Virus record (IMG/VR): IMGVR_UViG_3300033149_001657
Location: 64,001-107,896 of that record
Reading direction: 5' to 3' (one strand)
DNA length: 43,896 nucleotides
From: a virus
The translations under genes were made by a program, and so were the position numbers. The notes beneath the pieces are model-generated. The model did no database searches, was not told where the DNA came from, and worked only from the letters and a program-made list of their open reading frames with translations. Within the stretch, counting starts at the first letter, position 1; each line of letters begins with the position of its first letter. This document shows positions 35 to 40,886 of the stretch, piece by piece.

Positions 35-1105
35 CTAAAGGTCAGAAGCACTGAAGCTTCCAGACTTAGCATTAACAATTATACCGATTGCATTATCATC
101 TGTAACTGCAAATTCTCTCTCTGTCCATAGATGATACCATGTTCTATCTATTGCTGGTTTGCTCTCTTCCTCAGCTTCCAGGTCTCTCTTTATAACGTGA
201 TACCCAAGTCTGCTGGAGTCAACCATAATAGCTACTCCCTCTGGAACAAGTGGTGATTCTACTATCCTCAGATCAGCTATCATACCTATCTCTCCACTTA
301 TCAGATCTTTGTTGTAGAGTTTGGCATTTACAAACAGAGATGAAACATCTGGATCATATAACAGTGTAGATACTTCAGTGCTATTTACCAAGACTATATC
401 TGGATTTACAGTAGCAGCTAGCAAAGTGGATCTAAGATTGAATATGTCCCATGCAGTAAGAGATGATTTCTCACTAACGTCAACTACTAGACCAGATGAC
501 TTGCATCTGTTTGAGTATAAAAATGTAACTGTAGCAGCTGAAACAGAGTTTGATAGGAGAACCTTGCCATCATAATAGTCTACTGCATTTATAGTAGCTC
601 CAGGTGATACAGAAGAGATAGTAACTATCGGTGTCAGTGTTGTACTTCCAAGTGTACCACCACTCCAACTAGATATTGTACCAGATTTCAGATCAAGAGA
701 TATAGTTTGAGCTCGAAGATCCAATTCTTCAGCTAGTTTTTTACCAGCTTCATATAGAAAGTCCTTAAGAACATCTCTCACTGGCATCTCAAGAGCTTCA
801 TTATCTATTTCAAGTCTTATACCAAACTTAGATACTTCAACAGTTGTACCAGTATATGAAATTGTACTGGAGGATGAGATAGTACCTCCTTCAGAAAGAG
901 TCTCAACTGTTATACTTTCAGTAACATTAGGAAGAACAATACTTCTGGCTTTTACTTTCTCAAGATCTTTATTCTCTCTAAATATTTGAGATATTACAGT
1001 TTTACTTCTAGATACAAAATCAACAGTCTTAGATATTATTCTAGGAGTGATTTCCTGAACATCAGCTGTACCTAAAGCTAATTCAACCAGATCTTTCTCT
1101 CTCAT
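35..1105 (-). CDS. HK97-type major capsid protein, copy 1
   Basis: Forms the icosahedral shell of the head. The 356 residues are collinear from end to end with the second capsid protein at 9474-10535: shared NEALEM followed by a RDV block (residues 102-112), D-x-RAQT, LDLKS and SW-GG segments (129-150), a beta-rich insert (about 155-200) and C-terminal SGEIG, VPEG and RLGY motifs (270-302). Length and a position just after a prohead protease and scaffold fit HK97-fold capsid proteins. Start: ATG with AGGAGGG a few bases upstream, overlapping the previous stop as ATGA. It is the last gene of a minus-strand operon with protease-scaffold and two coiled-coil proteins; T-rich DNA follows the stop. 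One exact GATAGTWACTATC palindrome lies inside it. The HK97 assignment is by pattern and context, the paralogy by direct comparison. Confidence 0.85.
   Translation of the reverse strand: MREKDLVELALGTADVQEITPRIISKTVDFVSRSKTVISQIFRENKDLEKVKARSIVLPNVTESITVETLSEGGTISSSSTISYTGTTVEVSKFGIRLEIDNEALEMPVRDVLKDFLYEAGKKLAEELDLRAQTISLDLKSGTISSWSGGTLGSTTLTPIVTISSVSPGATINAVDYYDGKVLLSNSVSAATVTFLYSNRCKSSGLVVDVSEKSSLTAWDIFNLRSTLLAATVNPDIVLVNSTEVSTLLYDPDVSSLFVNAKLYNKDLISGEIGMIADLRIVESPLVPEGVAIMVDSSRLGYHVIKRDLEAEEESKPAIDRTWYHLWTEREFAVTDDNAIGIIVNAKSGSFSASDL
617..629. repeat. GATAGTWACTATC palindrome, exact copy 1
   Basis: Exact 13-bp palindrome inside capsid gene 1, coding Ile-Val-Thr-Ile on the minus strand. 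Confidence 0.75.
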
Positions 1106-1350
1106 CCAGATACCCTCCTTTTAGGTGGTTCTACTTCATAATGCTTGATAGCTAAGTTAGCAGCTAAATCAAGTCTTTCCCGTAGATCCAAGTTACTAGT
1201 TAAATCTTTAGTGATCTTGTTCATAGATAGTTCCTCTGAAGTCTTCTTCAAGGTCTCCATTTCTCTCTCTAGATTTTCGACTCTCTTAGTAAGTTCCTCT
1301 ATTTGTTTAAGACGTTCAAGTATCTGCAAAAGAGTATCTATTTCTGTCAT
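1102..1350 (-). CDS. Small coiled-coil virion-assembly protein A
   Basis: Short (82 residues) and almost wholly charged helix with a heptad-like Leu/Ile pattern, so very likely a coiled coil. It resembles its upstream neighbour (1353-1610): both start with an ILxxL helix, carry an Lys/Glu-rich middle and end in A-I-x-H-x-x-V-x-PPKRR. The two are tandem paralogs. Start: the ATG at 1350 has GGAG six bases upstream; an ATG six bases earlier would leave almost no spacing. It sits between protease-scaffold and capsid protein 1, so a capsid-assembly or internal-head role is likely, but no family is recognised and the role is inferred from position. Confidence 0.72.
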   Translation of the reverse strand: MTEIDTLLQILERLKQIEELTKRVENLEREMETLKKTSEELSMNKITKDLTSNLDLRERLDLAANLAIKHYEVEPPKRRVSG

Positions 1351-1352
1351 TC

Positions 1353-1610
1353 TCATCTCCTCTTCGGAGGTTGAACCCTGAAATGTTCTATAGCTGCATC
1401 AGCAGCTTTTTCAAGTAATGGTCTTACTTGAGCTCTTACATCTTCCAATCGATTTGATAGCTCTTCTACCTTCCTTAGAGAAGCAAAAACAGCTTGTTTA
1501 TTTTCCTCTTGAGTTAGTTTCTCCTCTTCTTTCTTCTCAAGAGTTTCTATTCTATTCTCTAGATTCTCTAGCTTTGTAAGTATCTGCATTAATATCTGAA
1601 CTTGATCCAT
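1353..1610 (-). CDS. Small coiled-coil virion-assembly protein B
   Basis: Paralog of the next gene downstream: 85 residues, predicted long helix rich in Glu/Lys with Leu/Ile repeats, ending in AAIEHFRVQPPKRR. The ATG overlaps the stop of the protease-scaffold gene (TAATG), which suggests translational coupling. The conserved basic PPKRR tail in both copies may contact DNA, the portal or the capsid interior. This is inference; I know no family. Location inside the protease-scaffold-capsid operon supports a head-assembly role. Confidence 0.72.
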   Translation of the reverse strand: MDQVQILMQILTKLENLENRIETLEKKEEEKLTQEENKQAVFASLRKVEELSNRLEDVRAQVRPLLEKAADAAIEHFRVQPPKRR

Positions 1611-2995
1611 TATATCTGAGCCTCACGTCTCTTTTTAAAATCAGCTATCAACATATCAGCTATTAAACCTTTCTCAGCTATCATCTTAGCTATCTCAGCT
1701 GGTGATGGGATGGTTTTTTCATGGCTCTGTTGAGGAGCTTGCTCTTGTGTAATAGTAGATTCTTCTTCTTTAGACTCCTCTACGTCTTCGGATTCTTCTT
1801 TATTAGAATCGGATGACTCTTTTTCTTGCTCCTGTTTCTGAGTCTTTGTGTCATCCTCTGGTTTCTGTTCTTCTGTCTTAGTTTCCTGAGTATCTTGTTT
1901 CTGTTCTTGTTCCTGAGAAGGTTCTTCCTGTGAAGAATCTTGTGCAGATTCCTCAGTATCATTCTCTTCGTTAGTAACTATCTCTTTATCAGACATTTCC
2001 TCACTTTCATCTGTCTCAGAGTTCTCATTCTCTACATCAATATCTGCATTTAAAGACTCTTCAGAATTCTCTTTCTCATTCTTAGACTGTTTCTCAGGTT
2101 CTGGATACTTACCCTCTCCATACTTACCATACTTATCAGCATGTTCTTTATTGAAGTGATCTATCATTTCCTCTTTAGTGTCGAATTCTTCTCCACACAC
2201 TGGACATTTAAACTTCTTAGATTGTTTCTCTGTTTCTCTGCTTAAGTTACCAGCTGCAATATTAAGACTAGCTATGTACTTCTCAGCTTCTTCCTTAGAA
2301 TCAAACTGTTTGAGAATCTTCATCCTTCCATCTTTTTGCTTCTCCATTACAATGTATTTACCAGTCTGTTTATTTCTAACTATTTTGTACTCACCAAGTT
2401 CTTCTATATCCTCTAGCTCTTCAGTTAAATGAGCTCCCCCTGTACCTCTAGGTGGTAAGAGCTTGTAAGCTAGATCACCAATTAGATCTAGAAGTTTTTC
2501 AGCTGTCTCCCTTCCAAAGTGAGCTATCAATCTCTCCTTATCTGATCTTGGACCAGATGGATATTCATTGTGATAGGAGTAGTAGTACTGAGGAACTGGA
2601 TATTGAGGATAGTAAGGATACTCGTATTTCTCAGGATATCCATATTGTGGATAGTAATAATACTTTGGATAAGATTTCTCTTCTTCACCTTCTTTGGGAG
2701 ATTTTGGATAGTAGTATGGATAACCGTAGTGTGGATAACCATACGTTGGATAATAATAGTAGTAAATCTTCACTTTAGCTCTCTTCTTGGATACTGGATA
2801 TTTTCCAGCTGGATAGAAACCATATATTACTCTATGATTCTTGATAGCTTCATCAGCAGGCATAAACTCAAGTTCAACTTCTCTTTCCCTGGGTTTCAGT
2901 ATAGGTAAAACAGCTACCATATCCTGTTTAAGTTCAAATATTTCCTCAATAGCTGAGTTTTCTTGAGATTCTTTTTCTGTATTTTCTTCACTCAT
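1610..2995 (-). CDS. Nested internal-start scaffold protein
   Basis: Within the protease-scaffold gene, the codons just before residue 222 read AAGGAGGAAATAAATATG: a full Shine-Dalgarno sequence eight bases from an in-frame ATG. It is stronger than any signal at the start of the full-length gene. Translation from here gives a 461-residue product that lacks the protease domain but keeps the Tyr-rich block, zinc finger, acidic region and C-terminal helix. This is the arrangement of lambda C and Nu3, where scaffold is made from an internal start in the protease gene. The signal is seen directly; production of the protein is inferred. Confidence 0.6.
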   Translation of the reverse strand: MSEENTEKESQENSAIEEIFELKQDMVAVLPILKPREREVELEFMPADEAIKNHRVIYGFYPAGKYPVSKKRAKVKIYYYYYPTYGYPHYGYPYYYPKSPKEGEEEKSYPKYYYYPQYGYPEKYEYPYYPQYPVPQYYYSYHNEYPSGPRSDKERLIAHFGRETAEKLLDLIGDLAYKLLPPRGTGGAHLTEELEDIEELGEYKIVRNKQTGKYIVMEKQKDGRMKILKQFDSKEEAEKYIASLNIAAGNLSRETEKQSKKFKCPVCGEEFDTKEEMIDHFNKEHADKYGKYGEGKYPEPEKQSKNEKENSEESLNADIDVENENSETDESEEMSDKEIVTNEENDTEESAQDSSQEEPSQEQEQKQDTQETKTEEQKPEDDTKTQKQEQEKESSDSNKEESEDVEESKEEESTITQEQAPQQSHEKTIPSPAEIAKMIAEKGLIADMLIADFKKRREAQI

Positions 2996-3658
2996 ATTTA
3001 TTTCCTCCTTATTCTCTGTATGAACATCATCATTTTTATTCATTTCTTTTATTACTCCAAAAAATTTAAACATAGAGCTTTCTGAGCTTTTATTCAGCTC
3101 TTCAGCATTAACTATAATACATGATTCACAAGCTGGTGCACTTGTAAGAGAGTTGTCTACTGGTTCAAGATCTATTCCTTTATCAACACCACCAACATTC
3201 TCTTTCTTTAAATATAGTTTCAAACTAGTACCTACAAATCTACCGTTCTTTAGCTCTTCTATAGCTTTAGGATCTGTTATCTCGGCTTCATACAAAATAG
3301 CTCCAAGAGTATCAGACCACTCAACATTAGTATGTTGTCCTACAGCCTTTGAACCAAAATCATCATCTCTCTCATGCTCTATTCTTACTGGAAGCTTAGA
3401 AAGCTTATCCTTGAATATCTTGTACATCTTTTTAATCTCTTCCTTAGAATAAAGAACACCATTCCATACACCCTCAGCTAATAGAATGCCTGAAATTCTG
3501 AGCTTGTCTGCAAGCTCTTCTACTACAGAGAAATCTGATAGTGTCTCAACCTCAACTGTGTCTGATATATTCCTCTTGGTAAGCTTTTCTATTTCTTGTC
3601 TGAGATAGGTATTTTCAGCTATTAGCTCATTAACAATACTATCACTCATTGAAACCAT
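1610..3658 (-). CDS. Prohead maturation protease fused to scaffold
   Basis: Head-maturation protease and internal scaffold in one 682-residue chain. Residues about 55-185 match the S78/U35-like prohead protease pattern: IEHERD with candidate catalytic His95, FVGTSLKLYL with candidate Ser145, then a D-x-SLTS-P segment. After a linker come a tyrosine-rich stretch (about 298-365, repeated YGYP/YYYP units), an ordered patch (about 420-465), a C2H2 finger (Cys485, Cys488, His501, His506), a long Glu/Gln/Ser acidic region (about 520-645) and a helical tail. Acidic helical scaffolds fused to proteases are known from lambda-like phages; the Tyr-rich block and zinc finger are unusual. No ribosome binding site precedes the ATG, but a TATA-like box lies about 26 bases upstream, so the message may be nearly leaderless. 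A second start lies inside (see 1610-2995). Confidence 0.82.
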   Translation of the reverse strand: MVSMSDSIVNELIAENTYLRQEIEKLTKRNISDTVEVETLSDFSVVEELADKLRISGILLAEGVWNGVLYSKEEIKKMYKIFKDKLSKLPVRIEHERDDDFGSKAVGQHTNVEWSDTLGAILYEAEITDPKAIEELKNGRFVGTSLKLYLKKENVGGVDKGIDLEPVDNSLTSAPACESCIIVNAEELNKSSESSMFKFFGVIKEMNKNDDVHTENKEEINMSEENTEKESQENSAIEEIFELKQDMVAVLPILKPREREVELEFMPADEAIKNHRVIYGFYPAGKYPVSKKRAKVKIYYYYYPTYGYPHYGYPYYYPKSPKEGEEEKSYPKYYYYPQYGYPEKYEYPYYPQYPVPQYYYSYHNEYPSGPRSDKERLIAHFGRETAEKLLDLIGDLAYKLLPPRGTGGAHLTEELEDIEELGEYKIVRNKQTGKYIVMEKQKDGRMKILKQFDSKEEAEKYIASLNIAAGNLSRETEKQSKKFKCPVCGEEFDTKEEMIDHFNKEHADKYGKYGEGKYPEPEKQSKNEKENSEESLNADIDVENENSETDESEEMSDKEIVTNEENDTEESAQDSSQEEPSQEQEQKQDTQETKTEEQKPEDDTKTQKQEQEKESSDSNKEESEDVEESKEEESTITQEQAPQQSHEKTIPSPAEIAKMIAEKGLIADMLIADFKKRREAQI

Positions 3659-3682
3659 CCCACAATTAATAGTGCATTTTCT

Positions 3683-4024: not shown

Positions 4025-4026
4025 AC

Positions 4027-6021
4027 TCATTTCCTCTTCTCCCTTATCTGAGATCTAACAAACTCATGTAGCTTGTTTTTCTTAATCCAATTAACTGCCT
4101 TATCATAATCCCATTTGTCAGATTTAAACGTTACATAAGCTACTCTAGCATGATGAATCTTGCCTGGTACAGAATATAGCCCTATAGCTATTTCCACTCC
4201 TTCTGGAATTTCTAGATCTGGTAGATACTTCTTTACTCTCTCATCTGGTTCTACTCTAGTAAACTTACGTATATCATAGATATGTACTATGAAATGATCC
4301 CATCCTCTCTTCTCTTCTATTTGGAATGGATCAAATGGTTCTCCTGTTCTAGGATCACCAGCTGATAATAATTCATAGTATAGCTCCATTAACCTGAATT
4401 TCTTAGATAGTTCTGGACTTGGAAGTTTACTCTTCATAAATTTCCACTCACCATTAGTCTTTCTTATAATGAAGTAACCTTTGAGTTTGCTACCTTTTAT
4501 GTTCATTGAAATAAAGTTTGGACTAGTCTCTAGCAGTGTAAGTTCACCATGATCCACAGTCTCTACTTTTGACCATACACCATAAGATCTTATCCTTGTT
4601 CCTGGTTCTTTTATAGACATCCATTTATCCACATCTACACCACAAGTTTTGTAAACAGCTTTTATTGGCTCTTCTATTTTAGCTTTTATTGGATTACCAT
4701 ATAGATTAACTTCTTCAAGATAGTTACTATCTTTTAGCTTCCATCTCAAGTCATAATGATAGTCAGGATCATCTTCAGGGAACCAGTGTTTATCTAATAC
4801 GAACTTTGCAATTCTTTCTTCTAGTTCTGATAGTTTCTCAAATGTGTAAGTATCTGTATCTGGATCTTCTTGTATTAACTGCCATCTACCACGTAGCTTC
4901 TTACCTTTAAATTCGATAGTTACTATCTCTTCCCCTGTTTCAGTTCTCTCTGTAGAATATTTAGCAGTACCACTATCTACAGTAGTAAAGTCAGCTGCCA
5001 TTCTCTTGTTCTCATTGAACTTAGTATCTGGACCAATCACACCATCATATGACATCCACTTTCTATCTGATCTGTCCATTTCATAAGCTCCCATTACTTC
5101 GTCTCTCAATGGATAGCCATCTAGTAGAAATGTACGCACTCTTCCCTCTCCTTTATCGTCAATGAATAAATACCATCTAAACTGAGGCACCTGTCTTCCA
5201 GACTTTGCTCTAAATCCCATCCAGCTCACTAAAGCTAGTGAAAACTTTACATTTTTTGATAGAAGCTCATCCTTCTTAGAGACATAGAGTTTTTCTAGCT
5301 TGTTAATATCTTTCTCATCAGACTTAGTAATCCACTGTAACCATTTTCTATATTGATCTTCAAAGTTCTTCTTAACCCATTCTTTAGGAAATGGAAATGG
5401 ACATTCCTTAGGTGGCTTCCATTTCTCTCTAATTGCTCTATTAGAAATAGTATATGGCAATTGAGTCTTTGGTATCATAAATCTCCACATCCTCTCATAC
5501 TTACCAGGAATAGGTTTCTTAGTTTCAGGATCTATCTTAGCTACTTTAATGCCTCTGATCACCACTCTAGTCCAGTCTTTAAAATACTTGTTATCTTTAA
5601 GGAAGTATTCATGGAAATAGACTTTCTGAGCTCCAGTCATATGCACACCAGTAGTTAGTATCTCAAACTTACCTGGAGCATCTTCTCCAGCTCCGACTTC
5701 ACCAGGTGGCACTTCACCCTCTACTTTTAACCATTGTAATGGTTGCCTAGCTTTAGTCTCAGCTCTAAATCCTTTACCAATATTGTCTAAAAGATTCTGG
5801 ACAGAAAATGGATCATCCTCACTAAACCCAACTATAGACCATCCAATCAAATATCCATTAACCTTCAATCTTAAATCTCCATGATTAGACTTCCCTATAC
5901 TATGTCTCTGAATAACAAATGGTTTTGGCTCCGTTACATACTCCATATACTTAGCAACTAATTTAGCTGCTATATTTTCTGAAACAACTAGCTCATCCAA
6001 CATATACTTATATATTTTCAT
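4027..6021 (-). CDS. LigD-like 3'-phosphoesterase repeat protein
   Basis: Probably trims or processes 3' ends for the ligase encoded immediately upstream. Residues 35-61 (FVIQRHSIGKSNHGDLRLKV then W) match the 3'-phosphoesterase (PE) domain of LigD, whose H-x-D-x-R triad appears here as His47, Asp49, Arg51 with His40 before it. EGEVPPGEVGAG (about 101-112) matches the PE 'EGxIPxGEYGAG' strand. At about 276-385 comes a second PE-like unit with a SYDGVIGP strand and a GKKLRGRWQLI end but no catalytic His/Asp. At about 409-530 a third has His412, HYDLR (His422, Asp424, Arg426) and SKLKGYFIIRK. At 664 residues it is far longer than a single PE domain (about 150-200), so it seems to be a triplicated PE. 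ATGA overlap and a good GGAGG tie it to the ligase gene. Motif matches are seen; activity is inferred. Confidence 0.7.
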   Translation of the reverse strand: MKIYKYMLDELVVSENIAAKLVAKYMEYVTEPKPFVIQRHSIGKSNHGDLRLKVNGYLIGWSIVGFSEDDPFSVQNLLDNIGKGFRAETKARQPLQWLKVEGEVPPGEVGAGEDAPGKFEILTTGVHMTGAQKVYFHEYFLKDNKYFKDWTRVVIRGIKVAKIDPETKKPIPGKYERMWRFMIPKTQLPYTISNRAIREKWKPPKECPFPFPKEWVKKNFEDQYRKWLQWITKSDEKDINKLEKLYVSKKDELLSKNVKFSLALVSWMGFRAKSGRQVPQFRWYLFIDDKGEGRVRTFLLDGYPLRDEVMGAYEMDRSDRKWMSYDGVIGPDTKFNENKRMAADFTTVDSGTAKYSTERTETGEEIVTIEFKGKKLRGRWQLIQEDPDTDTYTFEKLSELEERIAKFVLDKHWFPEDDPDYHYDLRWKLKDSNYLEEVNLYGNPIKAKIEEPIKAVYKTCGVDVDKWMSIKEPGTRIRSYGVWSKVETVDHGELTLLETSPNFISMNIKGSKLKGYFIIRKTNGEWKFMKSKLPSPELSKKFRLMELYYELLSAGDPRTGEPFDPFQIEEKRGWDHFIVHIYDIRKFTRVEPDERVKKYLPDLEIPEGVEIAIGLYSVPGKIHHARVAYVTFKSDKWDYDKAVNWIKKNKLHEFVRSQIREKRK
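4717..4733. repeat. GATAGTWACTATC palindrome, exact copy 2
   Basis: Exact copy (4719-4731) extended to a perfect 17-bp palindrome, AAGATAGTTACTATCTT, inside the phosphoesterase-like gene. Codes Asp-Ser-Asn-Tyr, a different phase from copy 1. Confidence 0.75.
4915..4927. repeat. GATAGTWACTATC palindrome, exact copy 3
   Basis: Exact copy, 196 bases from copy 2 in the same gene, coding Ile-Val-Thr-Ile. Confidence 0.75.
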
Positions 6022-8963
6022 TCTAGTGTCCTCCTCTCATAGATTCTATAACCATAATAATATGATTTGAGATACACACATCTGAATATACTAGCTAATG
6101 GACATGCTACTGGAAACCTAAGAGACTGAATCTTTAACTTTGTCATCTCTTCATATCTAGGTCTACCAAATATCATTTTCAATGGGCAAACCGACTTGTC
6201 CTCACTAAATGGACATAATTCCAAATCAAGTACTATTTCCTTAGAAAGCTCAGCTGGTCCAGTTCCTAGCTTAGCTATTCTCTCTACAGTCGTAAGAGTA
6301 TCTGGCTCTTTCTTGTCCAGTCTCTTCTCTTTAAAATAAGGAAACATCCATGTGTAATAATATTTGCCATCTTTAGTTTCATACCGTCTGATTCTAATTG
6401 GCATCACAGTGATGATGTCTCCTCTCCTACACTTGACATCTGTAGCATAACTTCTTCCTATAATTGCATAGTGCTTACCCTTGTACTCTACAACCTTATT
6501 CTTTGGAAAGTCATCTACTTTATCCTCTGGTATCAAATAGACAGAGACATACATATAGTTCCCTAATGGTTCACCAGTCTCCTTTCTCTTCTTTTCTATT
6601 ACATCCCATACCATTACATCTATTTCTTTGAGATTCTTGAGCTTAGCCCATCCTTCAACTCTGTTCTCTCCCTTATACTTGACTGGATATGTTGAATCAG
6701 CTGCTTTAGCTACTACTCCTTCAGAACCATTTACACGTCTCATCTTCTCAACAGCTGCTAAGAACTCTCTTGGAGAATCAACATAAATTGATCTTACCAC
6801 ATCAAGATATTTTGTATTCTTTGGAACTATCTTCTCCAATAGTTTAAATCTCTCAGAATATGGCAGATTCACTACAGGTTTCCCATTGTAATACATGATA
6901 TCATAGAACACATAGACAATTCTCTTCTCCAGATCTGGAGAAACTCTTCCAATTGTAATAGCAGCTGTATCTTCTCTTTCCATCAAGTCATAATTATTTC
7001 TCTTTAGCTTAGCAGATTTAACAGAGACATTTGAAGGTATCTCAAAAGCTACCATCTCTCCATCAAGAATACAACTATCACACTTAAGACTATCTTTGAT
7101 TTCTTTAATTATATTTGGGAACTGTTTAGCTCTATCTCTCTGTCTATCTTCTGTAAATATCTTAATAAGGTCCTTATCTTTGTCAACATGAAGTTGCATT
7201 CTGCGTCCATCAACCTTTTCCTGTACGAAGATTCCTTTATCTATGTATTCTTTAGCCCAATTCTCATACATCTCTTTGGAATCCCAGAACTCATATTTCT
7301 CGAACCCACTCTTTGGTTTGGCACCTATTATCGGTTTTCCTATCTTTATCTCTTTAGATAAATGTTCAAAACGGAATGGACCAAATCCTCTAACCATTTG
7401 ACTGTAAGGGATCTTAAAGAATCCTTTTCTATAGACATTTAGAGAATATCCAATTAAAGGACCGTATTTGTCAAAGACTGGATGTATTCTTCTCCCTAAC
7501 CATCTAGGAGAAATTGATTTTAATGCTCTAACTATCCTTGGATCATATTCTCCTTTTATGATGATATCAATATCATGATCCTTAGGGATTTTCCCCTCAT
7601 TCACTAATCGTCCAGCTATATACATATCATATGGTTCATCATTTAATATGATATGTATTGGAAGTGATTTCATTACATCTTCTAAAGTTATGTAGTCTCC
7701 TTCTGGTTCTGGCATCTCTTCTGATTGGAAAATAGCTTTTGGTGTTGGATATTCAGACACTTCTAACTCCACAGCTTTCTCCAGAATATTATTTCCTTTG
7801 TTCTCTTCCCATAGACCTCTCTTATAAAGTTCAATACCCACGAATACAGCTGCATCGTGGATATTTTCTGGTATCTTCTCTGGAGTATCAGCTGAGTGTT
7901 CCGCCATATCTACTAACAATCTCCATAGTGAAATTAGATCTTCATCTGTAAGTGATATAACAAACTCTGCATCTATATCTTCTATTCTCATTCCTTCTGG
8001 AAGTGAGAATAGTAACTGTGATTGTTCTTCTTTCCAAGGAATATTCTCTTTACCTATTTGTTTCACAATCCACTCAAATAATTCTCTAGCATGTTTCTTG
8101 TATGTCTCTGGTTTATTGAACGTAAACTTAGTAATCTCTTTCTTCTTGTATTCATTGTATCTCCTAATCATTTCTTTAGCAATAGATAATCCAAGCTTTT
8201 TGGTATCATCTATAGTAATTGGAGTACCATCCTTTCTTTTAAGAGCCTTACCTTCTTTAATCGAAGAGTACCAAGCTAATACTATTCTCCAGTCATCAGC
8301 TAGAGATCTATCATCCACATTCTTTATATTCCTAATATAATCTTCAACCGATTCTCTGATTAGATAAACAATTCTATCACAAGCTGTTCTAGATAAATGA
8401 ATCATACCTCTATCTAACATTTCATTTGCTATTATAAAGTGTGCTTCACAACATGGTGAGAATAATTCTGTGTATGAATGATAGAAAGCATGATACTTCT
8501 CCAGTTCTTCATTCATCATTTCACTTGGTTTGATAAATTCTATATTTTCAGCTCTAACAAATGTCTGAATTCCCTTTGGTATTCTTACTGGCTTAGGAAC
8601 TGAAAACGGTTTGAACATGAATTCATAAACATATAATGGTTCAGACCAATCCCATTCTTTGTATTCTTCTTCTGTTATCTTATGTTGATCTCTTAGCTTA
8701 TCAAATTCTTCTTTAGTTATCTTCTTAGGTTCTTTTAACCAAATTATCCCATAACATAGATCACCAGAAATAAGATACAGTGGTTCATCAATATGTTTCT
8801 TAAATTTACGATGTTTAACAATTAGTGTTTTCTTACCTTTCCATATAAGTTCACTATGAGGTTCTGTCAAATACAAACCCATCTTAGGTTCTTTAGGAAA
8901 CTCTTTAGGTATAATTGGTTCTATATCCTCAGGCTTAAGCTGTAACATTTCTTTCTCACTCAT
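6018..8963 (-). CDS. Multidomain ATP-dependent DNA ligase
   Basis: Seals DNA nicks by the ATP-dependent lysine-adenylate route. Counting from the upstream GTG (8981), the ligase core lies at about 575-880: motif I EKVDGRR (nucleophile Lys589), LDGEM (639-643), FYDIMYYNGK (692-701), EGVVAKA (754-760) and WAKLK (778-782), then an OB fold. Before it are an ASCH/PUA-like domain (about 34-150, LYLTEP...W-GKKT), a helical region (150-400), and a nucleotidyltransferase-like segment with AGRLVNEGK and DHDIDIII (455-476). After it a C-terminal module has Cys923, Cys932, Cys960 and Cys968, perhaps a zinc or Fe-S site. About 980 residues is far above the usual 300-600. Start: the ATG at 8963 lies about 13 bases downstream of the start site predicted from a TTTAAAT box at 9000-9006; the GTG at 8981 would lie upstream of it. 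First gene of its operon. Confidence 0.85.
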   Translation of the reverse strand: MSEKEMLQLKPEDIEPIIPKEFPKEPKMGLYLTEPHSELIWKGKKTLIVKHRKFKKHIDEPLYLISGDLCYGIIWLKEPKKITKEEFDKLRDQHKITEEEYKEWDWSEPLYVYEFMFKPFSVPKPVRIPKGIQTFVRAENIEFIKPSEMMNEELEKYHAFYHSYTELFSPCCEAHFIIANEMLDRGMIHLSRTACDRIVYLIRESVEDYIRNIKNVDDRSLADDWRIVLAWYSSIKEGKALKRKDGTPITIDDTKKLGLSIAKEMIRRYNEYKKKEITKFTFNKPETYKKHARELFEWIVKQIGKENIPWKEEQSQLLFSLPEGMRIEDIDAEFVISLTDEDLISLWRLLVDMAEHSADTPEKIPENIHDAAVFVGIELYKRGLWEENKGNNILEKAVELEVSEYPTPKAIFQSEEMPEPEGDYITLEDVMKSLPIHIILNDEPYDMYIAGRLVNEGKIPKDHDIDIIIKGEYDPRIVRALKSISPRWLGRRIHPVFDKYGPLIGYSLNVYRKGFFKIPYSQMVRGFGPFRFEHLSKEIKIGKPIIGAKPKSGFEKYEFWDSKEMYENWAKEYIDKGIFVQEKVDGRRMQLHVDKDKDLIKIFTEDRQRDRAKQFPNIIKEIKDSLKCDSCILDGEMVAFEIPSNVSVKSAKLKRNNYDLMEREDTAAITIGRVSPDLEKRIVYVFYDIMYYNGKPVVNLPYSERFKLLEKIVPKNTKYLDVVRSIYVDSPREFLAAVEKMRRVNGSEGVVAKAADSTYPVKYKGENRVEGWAKLKNLKEIDVMVWDVIEKKRKETGEPLGNYMYVSVYLIPEDKVDDFPKNKVVEYKGKHYAIIGRSYATDVKCRRGDIITVMPIRIRRYETKDGKYYYTWMFPYFKEKRLDKKEPDTLTTVERIAKLGTGPAELSKEIVLDLELCPFSEDKSVCPLKMIFGRPRYEEMTKLKIQSLRFPVACPLASIFRCVYLKSYYYGYRIYERRTLE

Positions 8964-8999
8964 AGTAACTAAATCCCTCACATTAAATTCAACATTATC

Positions 9000-26348: not shown

Positions 26349-26353
26349 AGTAA

Positions 26354-31037: not shown

Positions 31038-33590
31038 TCACCTCCCAAAGAATGAGGATATAGAAGTCTGACCTCTAGCACTTCTCATTACCTCGTTCCA
31101 TGATAAGCCTATAAGAGCTAATAAGTCTTCTGTCTTCTTCTTAATAGTACGTTCAAGGAGTCTATCTCTGTCTATAATAATACCAGAAGCTTTCTCTAGA
31201 TCAGAAGCTTCTCTAAATCCAGCTACGTCAGAATAAACAGTCTTTGTTATATGATAAATTATCTTGTTCTTGTCAGTCTTTGGATCTTTCTTGTTGATCT
31301 CTAGTGGTTCCTTTAGCTTTACTATTACGGTTATTGGCTTGTAACGATATTCCTTTATTGGTACGTAGAAGAACCTCTCTCCTTCCTGAATATCTAAATC
31401 AAGTATTTGGTTAGCAAACTCCATTGCTTTGAGCTGTATAACCATACTTGTGTATTCTGTTCTAGGTTTGGTCAAAGTTACAGCTATACCTATTTTCTCT
31501 AGAGGATACTTGTCGAGTTTCCTAATCTGTTTCTCTATGAAGTTCTTTATTTTCTGTTTATCAGCTCCATTTAACATCAGATCAATTAGTCCCTCTTGAG
31601 TCTCTATGGTTAGTTCAGACTGATCTTTCCTTACTATCTCAAGTCCCTTGAAGACCTTTCTACCATCTAGAGTCTTACCAGCATATCGTTTCTTAGCTAG
31701 CACAATAAGTCTTTTGTAGATCTCGTCTATCTCTAGAATTATTAAGCTTGGATCCACTCCATAGTGTCTGCTGATATAGTCATGTAGTCTTGACTGAATC
31801 TTGTCTCTTATCTGTTCAGCTTCGTTTTCAGAACCAGTCCTCATCTTGACAAATAATGAGTCAGTGTCGCCCATTATAGCCTCATATCCTATTTCTTTGC
31901 ATATCTCAATTGACTTTTTTAGTACATTTCTAGCAGCTATAGTTATACTTTCAGCTATAGCTATTGAGTAGAATCTAGACGCTGGTAGGTGACGTTCTGG
32001 ATCACCAGGAAACCCAAAGAACCCATATATTCCATTTACTATAGATTTGTACGCAAGTCTTCTACGTTTGAGAGCATTCAAAAGATCCCAGTCCCTTTTC
32101 TCTCTAGCTAACTTCTGTTGTCTCTTGTTTTCATCCAGTATAGGAGCCATCTCCTCTAGTAGTTGTACTGTCCAGCTCTTGGTACTTGATACATATCTGG
32201 CTCCTTCCAGTGAGATGTCACCAGAAGCATCATAAGTATCCCATCCAATATTGAATGTTCTGATTATGGATGGATACAGAGACTTAAAATCTACACATAC
32301 AACCCAGTCATGTATTCCAGGTATAGCTTTTAGAACTATGGCTCCTGAATATCTTCTTCTGACTTTCTCTACTGGTCTGGTTCTTAGAATCATCTTACCA
32401 TGTAGTAGTCTAAGATATGAAATGTCAGCTACTCTAGCTGCATACATGGCATCGTTGAATGAACATCCGACTTTGCGTCTAATAGGATCTAGATATTCAT
32501 CGATGAGCTTGAGCTTTCTGTCTATCTGCTTGATTAGATGAACATCTCTAAGGTTGTAATATAGAACATTTCTATAGTCACGTTTCCACGTTTCTCCTAT
32601 ACTACCATGTTTCAGAGGAATCTTTCCATGTCCAAGTACAACTTTGGAGATAAAGTCCAGAGTCTGGAATCTCTGTCCTCCTTCCACTTTTTCATATACC
32701 TCCTGTAGATCTATGTACTCAATACCACCTATGCTTAGATAGTCGGATCTCTTGGATTTCTTATCAGGATCTCTTTCTGAACTGACATACACTTTGAATA
32801 TATCGGAGAGTCCTCTGTATGGTATTTTGAGGTCTCTCATTCTACGTAAAAGAACCATCATATCGAACTTTGTAAATGAAACAAAAATATCTGGTCTTAT
32901 CTTTCTAATATAGTCGATGAAAGCATTCAGTACAGATACTTCGTCTCTGAAATATCTAATGTATTCATGATCTATTCCCTTGGTCTCTCTCCAGTATAGC
33001 TGGAGATACTGTTTTGAGAATGAATCCCACATCCCTATGATGGAGATTTGTTTGGAGCTTTCTGACACAGTCTCAACATCTAGAAACAATACTCGCTTAG
33101 ACGAGTATGGACACTCAGCTCCTTTACAATATGTGTCATCCCATGGAATGTATCTGTCAAGTTTATGCAGACTGAAGTAAAGATCATTCACTTCGATCCC
33201 GTTGCGAATATCCTTATCTATCAAGTATCGATATACAAATAATACATCTGCTTCGTAAGTATCAAAACCCCTAGGTCTGTACTTGCTCTTCTTATTATGC
33301 AACCATTTCTTAAGTTTAGCTACATCACTTGGAATTTTAGTTACTATCTTAGCAGCTAAGTCTCCACCACCCATCATAGGCATTCTAACAGTTTCTATTC
33401 TTTTAATCATAGATTTGTAGTCTTCAGGAAATTGAATATATGATAGATCCTGTCTTTGAATATAGAAGTATGGCTCAAAGTTTGGATCTCTGAAAATAAA
33501 TCTATTTCCATCTTTGTCTCTAGTAAACAGATATACAACTGGAGTTCCTTTCTCTATTCTATATGTAGCTGTTACAAGAGACAATAACAA
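31038..33590 (-). CDS. polB: Family B DNA polymerase with PIP box
   Basis: Replicative polymerase with proofreading. Numbered from TTG 33590 (850 residues): exonuclease motifs LDVET (Asp171, Glu173), SFTKFD (about 238-243) and YYNLRD (344-349); polymerase motifs DFKSLYPSII (434-443), K-x3-NGIYG (515-523) and GDTDS (574-578); KKRYAG in the thumb side. The C terminus ends QTSISSFF, a canonical PCNA-interacting peptide (841-848). No PCNA gene is seen, so it should use the host clamp. Start: GGTGA lies seven bases before TTG 33590 and one base before TTG 33596. A T9 tract lies just upstream. ExoII has Ser-Phe-Thr-Lys where NGYNFD-like residues are usual. Confidence 0.97.
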   Translation of the reverse strand: MLLSLVTATYRIEKGTPVVYLFTRDKDGNRFIFRDPNFEPYFYIQRQDLSYIQFPEDYKSMIKRIETVRMPMMGGGDLAAKIVTKIPSDVAKLKKWLHNKKSKYRPRGFDTYEADVLFVYRYLIDKDIRNGIEVNDLYFSLHKLDRYIPWDDTYCKGAECPYSSKRVLFLDVETVSESSKQISIIGMWDSFSKQYLQLYWRETKGIDHEYIRYFRDEVSVLNAFIDYIRKIRPDIFVSFTKFDMMVLLRRMRDLKIPYRGLSDIFKVYVSSERDPDKKSKRSDYLSIGGIEYIDLQEVYEKVEGGQRFQTLDFISKVVLGHGKIPLKHGSIGETWKRDYRNVLYYNLRDVHLIKQIDRKLKLIDEYLDPIRRKVGCSFNDAMYAARVADISYLRLLHGKMILRTRPVEKVRRRYSGAIVLKAIPGIHDWVVCVDFKSLYPSIIRTFNIGWDTYDASGDISLEGARYVSSTKSWTVQLLEEMAPILDENKRQQKLAREKRDWDLLNALKRRRLAYKSIVNGIYGFFGFPGDPERHLPASRFYSIAIAESITIAARNVLKKSIEICKEIGYEAIMGDTDSLFVKMRTGSENEAEQIRDKIQSRLHDYISRHYGVDPSLIILEIDEIYKRLIVLAKKRYAGKTLDGRKVFKGLEIVRKDQSELTIETQEGLIDLMLNGADKQKIKNFIEKQIRKLDKYPLEKIGIAVTLTKPRTEYTSMVIQLKAMEFANQILDLDIQEGERFFYVPIKEYRYKPITVIVKLKEPLEINKKDPKTDKNKIIYHITKTVYSDVAGFREASDLEKASGIIIDRDRLLERTIKKKTEDLLALIGLSWNEVMRSARGQTSISSFFGR

Positions 33591-33628: not shown

Positions 33629-34537
33629 TTAGAACATTAGTCCTAGCTCTTTAGCTCTTTTGTTTACATATTCCCATAGTATTTGAGCTACTATATCGTC
33701 CAATGTATCATTAGGAAAATCGAACTTAGCTATAGTTATTAACTTAGTTACTAGATCTGATGGAAGTCTCACTGGTCTCATTAGATATTTACGTTCATTC
33801 TTTGGCTTTCTTAGCTCTTCACTCATCTGCTTATATTTCTCTAGCTTAATCTCTGGGTTGACATCCAGATGACCCATCTTTGCATCTTGTACTAGTTCTT
33901 CTACAAGTCTCAATGGAGCTTCATTAGCTATCTCAAGTGTCTTGACAGCTACTTCTGGATTCTCCTTGAATACATCAAGTGTTTGAAGACTATTCCTGAG
34001 CAACTGTTTCTTCTTGATTGGAAGCTTCTTATATTCCTCTTCCTTCTCAGCTTGCTTCAATACATCTGGTACTTTATGAAGTCCCAACCATTCTCTTATA
34101 GTACTTGGAGATCTACCAGTAATAAGTGCTATCTGTTCCACAGACAGATTTTTGTCTCTAAGTGTCTTTGCAAATTGATATCTGTCCTCCATAGTCATAT
34201 CGTACTTTAGTTCATTCTCAAGGAATGAACGTACTATCTTTTCATTCTCTGACATGCGTTTCTTTAGACACCATATTTTTGGAATATCAGCTAATAATGC
34301 AGCTCTATATCGTCTTCCACCAGATACAACATACAGTTCCTCATCAACTATTATTGGTTCAGTGTTTATTCCAGTCTCTCTCAAAGATACTACTAGAGAA
34401 TCCAGGTCTACCTCTGGCTCATCCTTACGAGCATTGTAAGGAGATACTCCTTTTAGCTCTTTAGGATCAATATAGAGTATCTCCCATTCTTCATCTAGAA
34501 AATCTAGAAGCTTCTCAGGTGTAGTGTTCTCTGACAT
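33629..34537 (-). CDS. ParB-like DNA-binding protein
   Basis: 302 residues. Residues about 17-95 form the ParB/Srx-type N-terminal domain, with VSPYNARKDEPEVDLDSLVVSLRETGINTEPIIVD and the GGRRYRAA box that binds CTP or related nucleotides in ParB. A helix-turn-helix follows (LSVEQIALITGRSPSTIREWL, about 131-151), then helices, a basic linker, and a ribbon-like C terminus (RPVRLPSDLVTKLI). No ParA is seen. ParB proteins bind short palindromes (parS); the 13-bp palindrome scattered through this window is an obvious candidate. GAGGTGA lies five bases before the ATG. Confidence 0.85.
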   Translation of the reverse strand: MSENTTPEKLLDFLDEEWEILYIDPKELKGVSPYNARKDEPEVDLDSLVVSLRETGINTEPIIVDEELYVVSGGRRYRAALLADIPKIWCLKKRMSENEKIVRSFLENELKYDMTMEDRYQFAKTLRDKNLSVEQIALITGRSPSTIREWLGLHKVPDVLKQAEKEEEYKKLPIKKKQLLRNSLQTLDVFKENPEVAVKTLEIANEAPLRLVEELVQDAKMGHLDVNPEIKLEKYKQMSEELRKPKNERKYLMRPVRLPSDLVTKLITIAKFDFPNDTLDDIVAQILWEYVNKRAKELGLMF

Positions 34538-35570: not shown

Positions 35571-35591
35571 ATTTATCCCTCCTTGTTTGTG

Positions 35592-35810: not shown

Positions 35811-36457
35811 TCTCTAAGTACCTCAAATATTCTTTTTCCTTTCTTACCAAGTCTTCTATTGTTTATAACTATAGATGAGAGCTCATCCTCATCCATGTCA
35901 CATAGCTCAGCTATTGTGTATGTACGTCCAAGATAGTTAGCTGTTTTCTTACCAAGACCAGGAACACATCCAAGCATCTCTATTCTTATCTCCTCATTGG
36001 TAACACCACGTTTCGGTCTCAAAGGTTTAAGGCTTGGCTCTGTTTTTAAGCTTTTCTTATAATATTCCAACAGATCCTTTATGAAATCATCATCTGAAGC
36101 TACATGGATAACTGGTATTCTAAAGGAATAGTAACTAATGATTCTATGTAGTCGTAGTTCTCTTTCAATATCAACTGGTACAAGCTTATTTCCTACTCTT
36201 TTCTGAGGTGGTCTTTTAGGATAGACTCCAGTAATATAAACTATTGGTCTCTTAAGATCCTTCATTCTATACAATTGAGAATAGTATCGTTGTTCAACTA
36301 TACTGTTGAAGAAGTCATCAATTGTCTTTCTTTCTATTACAAGCTCATCTCCTAGTACATAATCTCCTATAGGTAGTCTAATTTTCTTAACTTCCACTCC
36401 ATAGTTACGTATTTTTTCCATCATTATGCTAGGTTCTCTATCGTCAACATATATCAT
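35807..36457 (-). CDS. XPF/ERCC4-type structure-specific nuclease
   Basis: Cuts branched or flap DNA. Residues 1-130 are the ERCC4 nuclease: DDRE (5-8), GDYVLGD (31-37) and the catalytic V-ERKTIDDFF (41-50). Residues about 150-216 are a helix-hairpin-helix pair (EMLGCVPGLGKKTANYLG, LGKKGKRIFEVL) that binds DNA. At 216 residues it resembles crenarchaeal XPF or the C-terminal half of Hef without helicase. No PIP box is visible at its end. Sits with RadA and PolB in the replication/recombination cluster. Confidence 0.93.
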   Translation of the reverse strand: MIYVDDREPSIMMEKIRNYGVEVKKIRLPIGDYVLGDELVIERKTIDDFFNSIVEQRYYSQLYRMKDLKRPIVYITGVYPKRPPQKRVGNKLVPVDIERELRLHRIISYYSFRIPVIHVASDDDFIKDLLEYYKKSLKTEPSLKPLRPKRGVTNEEIRIEMLGCVPGLGKKTANYLGRTYTIAELCDMDEDELSSIVINNRRLGKKGKRIFEVLRE

Positions 36458-36458
36458 T

Positions 36459-37041: not shown

Positions 37042-37271
37042 AGATCACTTCTAGTATAGACTTCTGTATATCCACATCCCTTACAATATATCACTATTTG
37101 AAGTATTTCATTGCTAGTAGCGGGGTATGGATAGAGCTGCATTTCGAGAGAGATTCTTTTTGATATTTCTTCCTTGCTATAATCAAGAGGATCTACTAGA
37201 TCTACTTCTCGTTTAGTTACTATCCTTGAAGAGATAGCTACAGATCCACAGTTAGGACATCTAGTATTCAT
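37038..37271 (-). CDS. Zinc-ribbon protein
   Basis: 77 residues: RCPNCGSVAISSRIVTKREVDLVD, a helical loop, then IVIYCKGCGYTEVYTR. Split zinc ribbon with a roughly 55-residue loop, similar in plan to the next gene (36664-37041), so the two may be distant paralogs. Starts directly after the radA stop and is probably co-transcribed with it. Confidence 0.68.
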   Translation of the reverse strand: MNTRCPNCGSVAISSRIVTKREVDLVDPLDYSKEEISKRISLEMQLYPYPATSNEILQIVIYCKGCGYTEVYTRSDL

Positions 37272-38261: not shown

Positions 38262-38473
38262 TCTTTCTTACCTCCTTTAAATACATACAAATTCATCATC
38301 ATGAGATGTTTGCAGTGTCCTCTATATCTTGAATATGCAGGACATGAACATACAAGCTTATCGTTACACAACCATACATAATACAGTCTTCCTTTTGGAG
38401 ATATAATTTTCCATACTCTGTATGATTCCTGAATTATCTTGTAACCAGACTTAGTAACTATCTCAGCTTCCAA
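38258..38473 (-). CDS. SWIM zinc-finger protein
   Basis: 71 residues with the SWIM signature VCSCPAYSRYRGHCKHL (Cys42, Cys44, Cys54, His56). In eukaryotes SWIM proteins (Shu2, SWS1) bind Rad51 paralogs and promote recombination, and archaeal SWIM proteins are known. Here the stop overlaps the radA start by four bases, so the pair is translated together. TTG start with AGGT seven bases upstream; overlaps the RNase HI gene by 11 bases. Likely a RadA mediator; the partnership is inferred from coupling. Confidence 0.8.
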   Translation of the reverse strand: MEAEIVTKSGYKIIQESYRVWKIISPKGRLYYVWLCNDKLVCSCPAYSRYRGHCKHLMMMNLYVFKGGKKE

Positions 38474-38804
38474 GAATCTTACCTGCCTTATTTAGTTTTC
38501 TAGGAATCCATTCAAATCTTATATTGAGATTCTTTTCACTTATCATACTCCATATTCTAAGAGCTGACTCTCTCAAGTGTTCTTTGTTTATTCCATATTC
38601 GTGTTTGAGCTGATTGATTACAACTTGTGAGTCAGAATAGATAACAGCAGAAGCATTGTTCTCAAGCATTGATATAGCTTTTTCAATAGCTAGATACTCT
38701 GTATGAACACTGGACTTAGCTTTTACCTTTTCATAAAATACTTTGTCTCCTACTATTCCAGAGATACTGTATTTGTCACTTCCATCCACATACACTTCTA
38801 TCAT
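38463..38804 (-). CDS. RNase HI-like ribonuclease
   Basis: Degrades RNA in RNA-DNA hybrids, such as primers. 113 residues: VYVDGS (Asp7), HTEYLAIEKAI (Glu36), IYSDSQVVINQL (Asp58) and FEWIPRKLNKAGKILGS. The usual fourth acid in N-x-x-AD is Gly here, and the protein ends soon after, so it is a short form. Start: ATG 38804 overlaps the preceding stop (ATGA) with AGGTGG upstream; the GTG at 38813 is less likely. Confidence 0.85.
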   Translation of the reverse strand: MIEVYVDGSDKYSISGIVGDKVFYEKVKAKSSVHTEYLAIEKAISMLENNASAVIYSDSQVVINQLKHEYGINKEHLRESALRIWSMISEKNLNIRFEWIPRKLNKAGKILGS

Positions 38805-39016
38805 GAGAACCACCTTTCCCTTATCCAGATCTTAAAATCATTGAAGTAATATTTTAACTTCTGGAACAGAGAGAGATGTTTCTTTACTATGACAATTCTA
38901 GTAGGAAACACTGGTCTGTCTCCACTCCATTCTGGAACTAGAGATACATCTTCTTTTGTCTCGTAGTGTGTAGACATGAAGAGACAGTACTCTTTATCTT
39001 CAACTAAGCTTCTCAT
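38801..39016 (-). CDS. Unknown 71-residue basic protein
   Basis: Two strands (EYCLFMSTHYE, PTRIVIVKKH) then a basic aromatic helix (FQKLKYYFNDFKIWIRERWFS). ATG 39016 has AGGTGAG five bases upstream; a GTG nine bases earlier overlaps that site. Lies between DHH nuclease and RNase HI genes with tight spacing. No family recognised; may be an accessory to either. Confidence 0.62.
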   Translation of the reverse strand: MRSLVEDKEYCLFMSTHYETKEDVSLVPEWSGDRPVFPTRIVIVKKHLSLFQKLKYYFNDFKIWIRERWFS

Positions 39017-39026
39017 GATTCTCACC

Positions 39027-40019
39027 TTAGAACGGTGTTCTAGCTATTTCTCTCAAGTCATTCATAAAAGTTTCCAGTGGTTGATCCTCTTCACTCAATA
39101 GAGAGACTCCACCGAATCCAGCATGACCGCCAGCTATATATCCTTTCTCAGATAGTCTATCAGTAATGTATTTAGTCAATATTCCTCTAATGGAGATAGA
39201 TCTTGTCTTTTTATTAATAACTACAAACGTCATATACGATTCTGAGTTTGAAAGTTCAGTAGCTACTCTTCCAGATATAGAATAGTCAGATTCTATGACA
39301 ACAATGGATATATGCTTTATTTGTTCAATAATTGGATTGGAACTGAATATTCTCTTTATTTCTCCACTAAGCTTTTCACTTGCTCGTTTAGCTACTGGAT
39401 TGTTAATTATCTCTCTTACACTCTTGGCTGATCTAAGGAGCTTGTAAGCTCCCATAACATCTCCCATTCTACACATACTGTTTATTGGTCCAGAAATAAT
39501 AGAAAACAATGGATATGGATATGTTCTAATTTTCCTATACTGATCTCTATATATTTTACCTTGCATTTCCCAGAGAAACGGACTTCTCATCCACACATCA
39601 CTAGGAATAACTTCTGGTTGTCCATCTCCACAAGCTGAGAGACACACTAGCCATATCTTATTGTCTGGGATTAGATCTTTAAACAGCTTGTATAGAATCA
39701 CGCCTGTAGGTTCTATTCCCAATACAAGTCTATATTCTGGATTCTCTGGATGATCTGGATGATGATCAATGATTATTCCATCGTATGCTCCTAGTGGAGA
39801 ACCTAGATCAACAGCTAAATCAGAGTCAATATAATCACCAAATATCTCTGGACTGTAAGGATAGTTACTATCCTCTCTTACCTTGAAAATACTAGCTATG
39901 ATACAAGCTGAAGCTAGTCCATCTGCATCTCCATGAAATGCTAGTCGTAGTGGCTCCATAGAACGTATCTCTTCAACCAATCTGTTTCTATCTATATTAT
40001 AGAACTTTATTTCTCTCAT
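39027..40019 (-). CDS. DHH-family (RecJ/GAN-like) phosphoesterase
   Basis: 330 residues. HGDADGLASA (Asp31, Asp33), LAVDLGS, the name-giving DHHPDHP (85-91) and, in the C-terminal DHHA1 domain, GGHAGFGG (about 297-304). Archaeal members of this family (RecJ, GAN) are single-strand exonucleases or nanoRNases linked to replisomes. Association with radA, RNase HI and polymerase genes fits DNA end resection or nucleotide recycling. Contains an exact palindrome extended to 17 bp (39858-39874). Confidence 0.92.
   Translation of the reverse strand: MREIKFYNIDRNRLVEEIRSMEPLRLAFHGDADGLASACIIASIFKVREDSNYPYSPEIFGDYIDSDLAVDLGSPLGAYDGIIIDHHPDHPENPEYRLVLGIEPTGVILYKLFKDLIPDNKIWLVCLSACGDGQPEVIPSDVWMRSPFLWEMQGKIYRDQYRKIRTYPYPLFSIISGPINSMCRMGDVMGAYKLLRSAKSVREIINNPVAKRASEKLSGEIKRIFSSNPIIEQIKHISIVVIESDYSISGRVATELSNSESYMTFVVINKKTRSISIRGILTKYITDRLSEKGYIAGGHAGFGGVSLLSEEDQPLETFMNDLREIARTPF
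39858..39874. repeat. GATAGTWACTATC palindrome, exact copy 6
   Basis: Exact copy (39860-39872) extended to a perfect 17-bp palindrome, AGGATAGTTACTATCCT, inside the DHH nuclease gene, coding Asp-Ser-Asn-Tyr. Confidence 0.75.
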
Positions 40020-40048
40020 TTGATATTACTCCACAGATAAGTATTTTA

Positions 40049-40351: not shown

Positions 40352-40371
40352 TTCAAATTGCCTCCTAGTGT

Positions 40372-40737
40372 TTATACTAATCCAGCTGGTCTCCTATTTA
40401 TAATTTTCTGATATCTCTCTATATCTTCCTTTAGATTACCAAGTATCTGCTCAGCTAACTTTCTGTAAAATGAAGAAGCTTTCTCTGGTGTCATAAAAGA
40501 GTCCTCTACTGATTTTTTCGTAATTGAGAAAAATATCCTTAGAGTCTTGTTTGACATAACTTCGGATCTTATTTGATAGAAAGAATCAATAAGATATTCA
40601 TTGTTGTTTTTGTCCGAATAAACAACATATGCATCATTTAGAAACTCATACTTTTCTACCATTTCATCAGCTACCTCTTTGACAGCATCAGCTATCTTGT
40701 CCATCTTACTTTTCCACAGTTTAAATCTAAGTTTCAT
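40372..40737 (-). CDS. Unknown 121-residue protein
   Basis: N-terminal amphipathic helix (KMDKIADAVKEVADEMVEKYEFL), a central strand region with NNNEYLIDSF and LRIFFSI, and a C-terminal helix ending in RRPAGLV. GAGGTG precedes the ATG. Between the DHH nuclease and a Vsr-like nuclease. No family recognised. Confidence 0.6.
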   Translation of the reverse strand: MKLRFKLWKSKMDKIADAVKEVADEMVEKYEFLNDAYVVYSDKNNNEYLIDSFYQIRSEVMSNKTLRIFFSITKKSVEDSFMTPEKASSFYRKLAEQILGNLKEDIERYQKIINRRPAGLV

Positions 40738-40739
40738 AT

Positions 40740-40886
40740 CTACACCTCAGAAGCTCCGATAGCAACTATCTTTGCTGATGGTAGATTATGACAAATTGTC
40801 CATGATAGAGTTTTCACAGCTTCTGGAGCTGACTTAGAATCTATATCCATCTGAATAGTCACTTCTGCTCTATATCTTTTTAACAT
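40740..40886 (-). CDS. 48-residue hidden protein
   Basis: GAGGTGATAAACA precedes an ATG within the last codons of the Vsr-like nuclease gene (17-base overlap). The product KRYRAEVTIQMDIDSKSAPEAVKTLSW...AKIVAIGASEV has a strand-helix-strand pattern, like half of a ferredoxin-like fold. It contains a 12/13 copy of the palindrome. The good ribosome binding site and the perfect fit between neighbours argue it is real; function unknown. Confidence 0.6.
   Translation of the reverse strand: MLKRYRAEVTIQMDIDSKSAPEAVKTLSWTICHNLPSAKIVAIGASEV

Follow-up and report, generated by a model that had tools for sequence, protein, structure and literature searches.

The viral records

The window analysed here is a stretch of 43,896 nucleotides, bases 64001-107896 of the IMG/VR virus record IMGVR_UViG_3300033149_001657 (record A, or G000; 107,896 bp), and scattered through it are copies of a 13-bp palindrome, GATAGTWACTATC, the subject of this report. 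Site coordinates are in window numbering unless "record" is stated. The window encodes tailed-virus genes (head proteins, portal and large terminase) together with archaea-type replication and repair genes for a family B DNA polymerase, a Rad51/RadA protein and an ERCC4-type nuclease. On the basis of this last group of genes we describe A as a probable "archaeal-type" large tailed virus; among the matches listed, the best phage-collection matches of its DNA polymerase B are to haloarchaeal viruses.

Several other records were compared with A. B (IMGVR_UViG_3300033156_000141, G001, 109,754 bp) is a close relative, colinear with A, the two being circularly permuted relative to each other, with 84,770 bases aligned at 83.6% identity. 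The A and B records begin at different points of one gene order, and the genome is therefore circular or circularly permuted; about 90 bases of both ends of B match the same stretch of A. C (IMGVR_UViG_3300028891_000081, G002, 128,201 bp) is more distant, with a terminase 56% identical, while D (IMGVR_UViG_3300033149_003115, G004, 113,897 bp) is a linear record with a terminase 58% identical, and E is IMGVR_UViG_3300002052_000213 (G005, 65,235 bp). For G003, the scan for palindromes took in locus L011 only (21.8 of 60.6 kb), and the searches for the palindrome core and for two candidate binding proteins introduced below (a ParB-like protein and P0001) took in the whole record.

A palindrome dispersed over the genome

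The initial annotation of the window listed six exact copies of the 13-mer (617, 4719, 4915, 19853, 29890 and 39860), four with one mismatch (1970, 16828, 26346 and 40758) and nine with two. All of the exact and one-mismatch copies are found at those positions; the nine two-mismatch copies are also present, although the real total is 11, those at 12553 and 20480 having been overlooked, and the position given as 21762 should read 21752. In 100 dinucleotide shuffles of the window, copies with no more than two mismatches averaged 2.07 and never exceeded 6, compared with the 21 observed. Counting beyond the window, as had been suggested, gave 15 exact copies in record A, where Markov models of orders 3, 4 and 5 predict 0.024, 0.056 and 0.31 and a reversed-pattern control gives 0, so the claim that exact copies lie far above chance holds for the whole record. 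Of the six exact window copies, those at 4719 and 39860 do extend to 17-bp palindromes, and the near-copy at 26346 does overlap a start and a stop codon. The exact copy at 29890, which had been called intergenic, lies between open reading frames (ORFs) by one ORF rule, but within a small ORF by another.

The invariant unit is a 9-bp palindrome, TAGTNACTA, which we refer to as the core. Record A has 73 cores spread across its whole length, 26 of them in the window, while the next commonest odd 9-bp palindrome has 16 copies. B has 76 cores and 20 exact copies of the 13-mer. Density per 10 kb is 5-9 cores in A and 3-13 in B. Among the 149 cores of A and B, the outer flanks GA and TC are both present in 36, one of them is present in 61 and neither in 52, and the centre base is A or T in 86%.

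One conceivable origin of such a word is codon usage. We consider this, together with a recognition site for a DNA methyltransferase or restriction system and an RNA hairpin, to be a very improbable group of explanations. When the codons of A were shuffled so as to keep each protein and the codon usage of each ORF, 200 shuffles gave a mean of 32.1 cores and a maximum of 39, against the 73 observed, the procedure leaving mostly untouched the 19 cores that are not fully within ORFs. A codon effect, already discounted in the initial annotation, is ruled out by these shuffles and by those for C described below.

Conservation between A and B

Of the 73 cores in A, 65 can be aligned to B (8 cannot), and 48 of these are kept while 17 are not. 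The cores within genes are kept in 31 of 43 cases, compared with 29% of other 9-mers, and those in 5' or noncoding positions in 17 of 22 cases, compared with 31%. At third codon positions within in-gene cores, A and B agree at 90 of 100 sites, compared with 70% elsewhere. Because both core retention and third-position conservation exceed their backgrounds, the data support selection on the palindrome at the level of DNA, as had been proposed from the window by itself. The individual window sites are as follows.

617-629, exact copy, inside a major head protein gene; one change in B breaks the core
1970-1982, one mismatch, core intact; core lost in B
4719-4731, exact copy with 17-bp extension; identical in B
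4915-4927, exact copy; core kept in B
8961-8973, core with three mismatches to the 13-mer, just past a gene start; core lost in B
9259-9271, two mismatches, core intact; unaligned to B
11432-11444, two mismatches, core intact; core lost in B
12553-12565, two mismatches, core intact, newly added; core lost in B
15395-15407, two mismatches, core intact; identical in B
15689-15701, near copy with two mismatches, core broken
16487-16499, core with four mismatches to the 13-mer; core kept in B
16828-16840, one mismatch, core intact; identical in B
17833-17845, core with four mismatches to the 13-mer; identical in B
18642-18654, two mismatches, core intact; identical in B
19853-19865, exact copy, in a radical-SAM-like gene; identical in B
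20480-20492, near copy with two mismatches, core broken, newly added
21752-21764, two mismatches, core intact, position corrected; core kept in B
25116-25128, core with three mismatches to the 13-mer, in an NrdD-like gene; core kept in B except for the free centre base
26346-26358, one mismatch, overlapping one gene's start codon and the next gene's stop codon; identical in B
28404-28416, core with four mismatches to the 13-mer; lost in B
29890-29902, exact copy, intergenic or within a very small ORF; identical in B
33336-33348, two mismatches, core intact, in the DNA polymerase B gene; core kept in B
33743-33755, core with four mismatches to the 13-mer, inside the ParB-like gene; lost in B
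36127-36139, core with three mismatches to the 13-mer, in an ERCC4-domain gene; identical in B
37212-37224, two mismatches, core intact; core kept in B
38450-38462, two mismatches, core intact, just within a gene start; identical in B
39860-39872, exact copy with 17-bp extension; core kept in B except for the free centre base
40758-40770, one mismatch, core broken
41155-41167, core with three mismatches to the 13-mer; identical in B

Position relative to promoters

Distances to genes were counted from the start codons given by a simple ORF caller. Cores peak 18-26 nt upstream of start codons, with 7 of 73 there in A (1.07 expected) and 8 of 76 in B (1.18 expected), numbers that none of 10,000 circular shifts reached in either genome. 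For the different palindrome of C, described below, 3 of 28 sites fall in this interval (0.42 expected, p 0.007 by circular shifts), the 28 sites being those counted when C or G is permitted at the inner arm base. Over the wider interval of 8-50 nt upstream the counts are 13 in A (5.1 expected, p 0.002), 12 in B (5.6, p 0.011) and 10 in C (2.0, p 0.0003).

Some of these sites belong to a promoter cassette that recurs in a small-gene region outside the window (record A 39-43.5 kb). Its order is an inverted repeat of approximately ACAACAnnCTTAsTAAGnnTGTTGCA, a TATA-like sequence CTTATAAA, the palindrome, a GGTGA ribosome site and the start codon. Among cassettes in the gene direction, an intact core is present in 3 of 6 in A and 4 of 7 in B. 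The inverted repeat itself, 25 bp long and upstream of the TATA-like box, occurs at record A 39.6-43.5 kb, B 23.7-27.2 kb and C 15.9-17.7 kb, and is probably the site of a second regulator. Given the upstream peak and the position in a TATA-type promoter cassette, an operator fits best among the functions offered in the initial annotation.

A different palindrome in C and none in D

C has a single copy of the A/B core. In its place we found 24 copies of another palindrome, TATATC-N5-GATATA, where 0.04 are expected. Most have the form TATATCYGAGRGATATA, and neither A nor B has any. The A site and the C site may be contrasted as GATAGTWACTATC and TATATCTGAGAGATATA. As with A, codon shuffling accounts for only part of the count (24 observed, mean 9.9 and maximum 13 in 200 shuffles, with 9 copies not fully in ORFs). 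C has five cassettes with the CTTAsTAAG element, all in one direction, at 15.9-17.7 kb, and the C palindrome occupies the TATA position after the element in two of them (15862 and 17144) and lies just before the element in one more. The asymmetric centre of the C palindrome occurs in both orientations, and for this reason an RNA hairpin, which the self-complementary sequence of the palindrome might suggest, is disfavoured.

D has 5 cores against 2.5 expected, and its reversed control also gives 5. A scan of D for dispersed palindromes turned up none of comparable strength: TGGGA-N5-TCCCA, with 6 copies, is a weak excess, GAGGACTATG is a scattered word, and TGTGGTAAA, considered as a dispersed word, reads Cys-Gly-Lys as in zinc-ribbon codons, by our reading of the places listed. 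Similarly, the 3 cores of E compare with 2.1 expected and with 3 in its reversed control, and G003 has none.

The absence from D is informative in that the DNA of genes common to A and D is up to 87% identical, from which a common or close host is likely; yet of the 12 A cores that align to D only one is kept, compared with a 9.7% background. In favour of a methylation mark, record A does encode two DNA-methyltransferase-like proteins. However, one of them (record A 5222-5881) has a counterpart in D with 94% of its amino acids identical, although D lacks the motif, and we reject that explanation; the second (record A 1385-2122) has a 58% identical counterpart in D. Together with the ParB-like protein discussed next, whose recognition helix is nearly the same in D, the shared genes of a virus lacking the motif argue against parS sites, a host factor and methylation alike.

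Candidate binding proteins

The initial annotation offered a ParB-like protein as a binder:

33629-34537, minus strand, ParB-like protein with a ParB N-terminal domain and a helix-turn-helix (HTH)

The palindromes would then be parS-like or KorB-like sites for partition, DNA organisation or long-range silencing, which we now consider unlikely. The protein matches PF02195 at 4.8e-9 (HTH_38 at 2.1e-4 is below the cut-off) and aligns with Spo0J and Noc structures; the sites are evenly spread; and the KorB operator core TTTAGCGGCTAAA has the same layout, a palindrome of odd length in which TAG and CTA take matching places (PMC11790492). However, the palindrome does not track ParB among the relatives. 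Homologs are present in A, B, C and D, with a weak partial one in E. The recognition helix of D, GRSHSTVREWL, is close to GRSPSTIREWL of A, yet D has no excess of cores, and the ParB of C is 45% identical to that of A, yet C carries another palindrome. The scans, which took in a subset of the ORFs, brought no recognisable ParA to light. We have accordingly set ParB aside as the leading binder.

A better correspondence is seen for P0001, a 248-residue protein encoded outside the window (record A 43935-44681, plus strand) and having a predicted HTH and a predicted RNase H-like, transposase-like domain. Its homologs are 93-94% identical in B and 39-40% in C, and a profile search that recovered the B and C homologs as positive controls gave none in D, E or G003. 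Of 173 crude A ORFs, 12 are present in B and C and not found in D, and among these only P0001 has a Pfam HTH match (E-value up to 0.1 or 1). The matches are to HTH_38 in A (0.0021) and B (0.00012) and to HTH_28 in C (0.00032). Between A and C the HTH has diverged strongly, whereas all three sequences keep D89, D152 and E181. A structural model built from those sequences predicts three N-terminal helices and an RNase H-like core, and it matches retroviral integrase cores (Z-score 5.7) and the HTH of the ISCth4 transposase (Z-score 5.3), both within the tool's possibly-ordinary range; the best Foldseek match is also the ISCth4 transposase (E-value 6e-4). No transposase family was matched above its cut-off by the P0001 sequences, and a profile search against solved structures returned antibody chains only (E-values 0.14-0.89). 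A DNA pattern derived from P0001 peptides was found among viral sequences in B and C only; the single match among genome contigs, in a bacterial contig, has stops in frame and is thus a chance match.

The reading that we prefer, and to which we would give about an even chance, is that the palindromes are dispersed, stoperator-like operators for a virus-encoded and probably dimeric HTH regulator, most likely P0001. P0001 dimers would bind the palindrome, and the copies that lie on the TATA box or immediately past it would keep the transcription complex from assembling at promoters with short leaders. The copies inside genes might act as roadblocks to elongation, or as extra sites that silence the whole genome, and such silencing would serve a carrier or lysogen-like state and act against superinfecting kin. 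As judged from the sequences, the most economical reading of the difference between A/B and C is that the regulator and its sites changed together.

Several observations weigh against this proposal. Most copies lie elsewhere in genes, 60 of the 73 in A being outside the 8-50 nt upstream of called starts; three of the six cassettes in A and three of the seven in B are without an intact core; and 52 of the 149 A and B cores have neither the outer GA nor the outer TC. The HTH matches of P0001 in A and B are below the Pfam cut-offs, and the model is weak (mean predicted local distance difference test score 63.7). No core lies just upstream of P0001 in A, and thus no autoregulation is seen. The sample is small, with three records having P0001 and three lacking it, and D, as a linear record, may be missing DNA at the place of P0001 between the terminase and the end; a different 180-residue ORF adjoins the terminase in D.

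Some other viral DNA-binding protein may be responsible instead, although this seems to us unlikely. Most small ORFs match no family, and among the 82 ORFs scanned a weak HTH could escape the E-value limit of 0.001, so one of the small proteins that have no recognised domain might bind. Two further candidates are the small terminase, against which a homolog in D counts, and a protein in which an HTH is joined to a calcineurin-like phosphoesterase domain (window 22805-24058, minus strand), found in A, B, C and D. In the latter, the helix is not the same in A and B, although these have one palindrome in common, yet C and D have similar helices and no common palindrome; as the helix does not track the motif, we rejected this protein as the binder.

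P0001 could also be bound to these sites for a transposition-type activity, whether for binding as such, for target immunity against self-insertion or for viral self-recognition. Its predicted RNase H-like core with the three invariant acidic residues and the spread of sites over the whole genome would agree with this, as would the lack of any integrase family match in the same scan of 82 ORFs, but the promoter-proximal peak and the position in the cassette point to transcription, and we judge this alternative improbable. Structures of insertions or of element ends were not seen either, though no test was aimed at them. Nothing specific was found in favour of the packaging, recombination or self-recognition roles mentioned in the initial annotation.

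Other features of the genomes

Apart from the palindrome, A has two different major head protein genes in one virus on opposite strands (window 35-1105, minus, and 9474-10535, plus), and a small RNase H-like protein is encoded at window 38463-38813 (minus strand). In B, the RadA gene (locus L016, about 12400-14330) has an in-frame insert at the P-loop which is absent from the A gene; its ends are intein-like (Cys first, HN before TGKT), and we read it as a probable intein. Proteins encoded at record A 100-978, 2371-2742, 2939-3280 and 5222-5881 are 85-94% identical to those of D, whereas identities of about 40-65% are the rule for proteins shared by A and D; genes may thus have been exchanged recently. 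A Band_7/SPFH protein (record A 18345-19292) is 80% identical in C, where most shared proteins are about 35-65% identical.

Comparison with known systems

The stoperators of cluster A mycobacteriophages are the nearest parallel in layout. As described in PMC6550527, some of these sites serve as promoter operators but the majority do not, and the consensus site differs between related phages. The palindromes resemble them in being many and dispersed (in A, 73 cores at 5-9 per 10 kb, with 13 of 73 within 8-50 nt upstream of starts) and in differing between related viruses. The HTH of P0001, the candidate regulator, also differs between A/B and C, a comparison that covers two putative specificities. 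Stoperators are described as asymmetric and mostly oriented with transcription, whereas the A/B sites are palindromic and the C centre occurs in both orientations; for that reason we do not class these sites as stoperators proper. The candidate regulator is also unlike theirs in being transposase-like, and the virus in being archaeal-type.

A recombinase-fold regulator has a precedent in MrpR, the master repressor of Bacillus phage SPbeta, which binds SPBRE, an element repeated at several phage promoters (PMC10516654). SPBRE copies are described there as lying at promoters or between genes, while most copies here are in genes. MrpR has a tyrosine-recombinase fold, whereas the P0001 model suggests, with low confidence, an RNase H-like core; no tyrosine-recombinase family was among the matches listed for the ORFs that were scanned. 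KorB of plasmid RK2, a ParB-type protein that represses at a distance via OB operators (PMC11790492), has the similarly spaced operator noted above, but the ParB-like protein here does not track the palindrome among relatives. Finally, F55 of the archaeal virus SSV1 represses viral promoters from sites that overlap the start site and the B recognition element, and the carrier state is maintained (PMC5569661). A virus-encoded regulator, here a candidate one, with sites at viral promoters is common to both systems; F55 is a ribbon-helix-helix protein with tandem-repeat sites at few promoters, unlike the genome-wide palindrome set seen here.

Implications

Dispersed repressor sites that co-evolve with their regulator are known from bacterial phages. 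In the open-licence literature, at the level of titles and abstracts, we found no dispersed repressor palindromes or comparable superinfection immunity in archaeal viruses, and the one paper that a search there for stoperators in archaea brought up deals with cyanophages. A broader proposal, which we regard as unlikely, is that the transposase-like protein is a master regulator of large archaeal-type viruses, that about 25-75 palindromes per genome would both silence promoters and label or cover the DNA of the virus itself (giving silencing and protection from self-insertion), and that regulator and sites would have changed specificity together between lineages. If P0001 is the binder, it would add one more recombinase-type protein to those that act as viral master regulators, and because the site has changed naturally between A/B and C, the specificity of regulator for operator can be tested directly. 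If the operator reading is true, it would count as evidence that these uncultured viruses have a dormant or carrier state.

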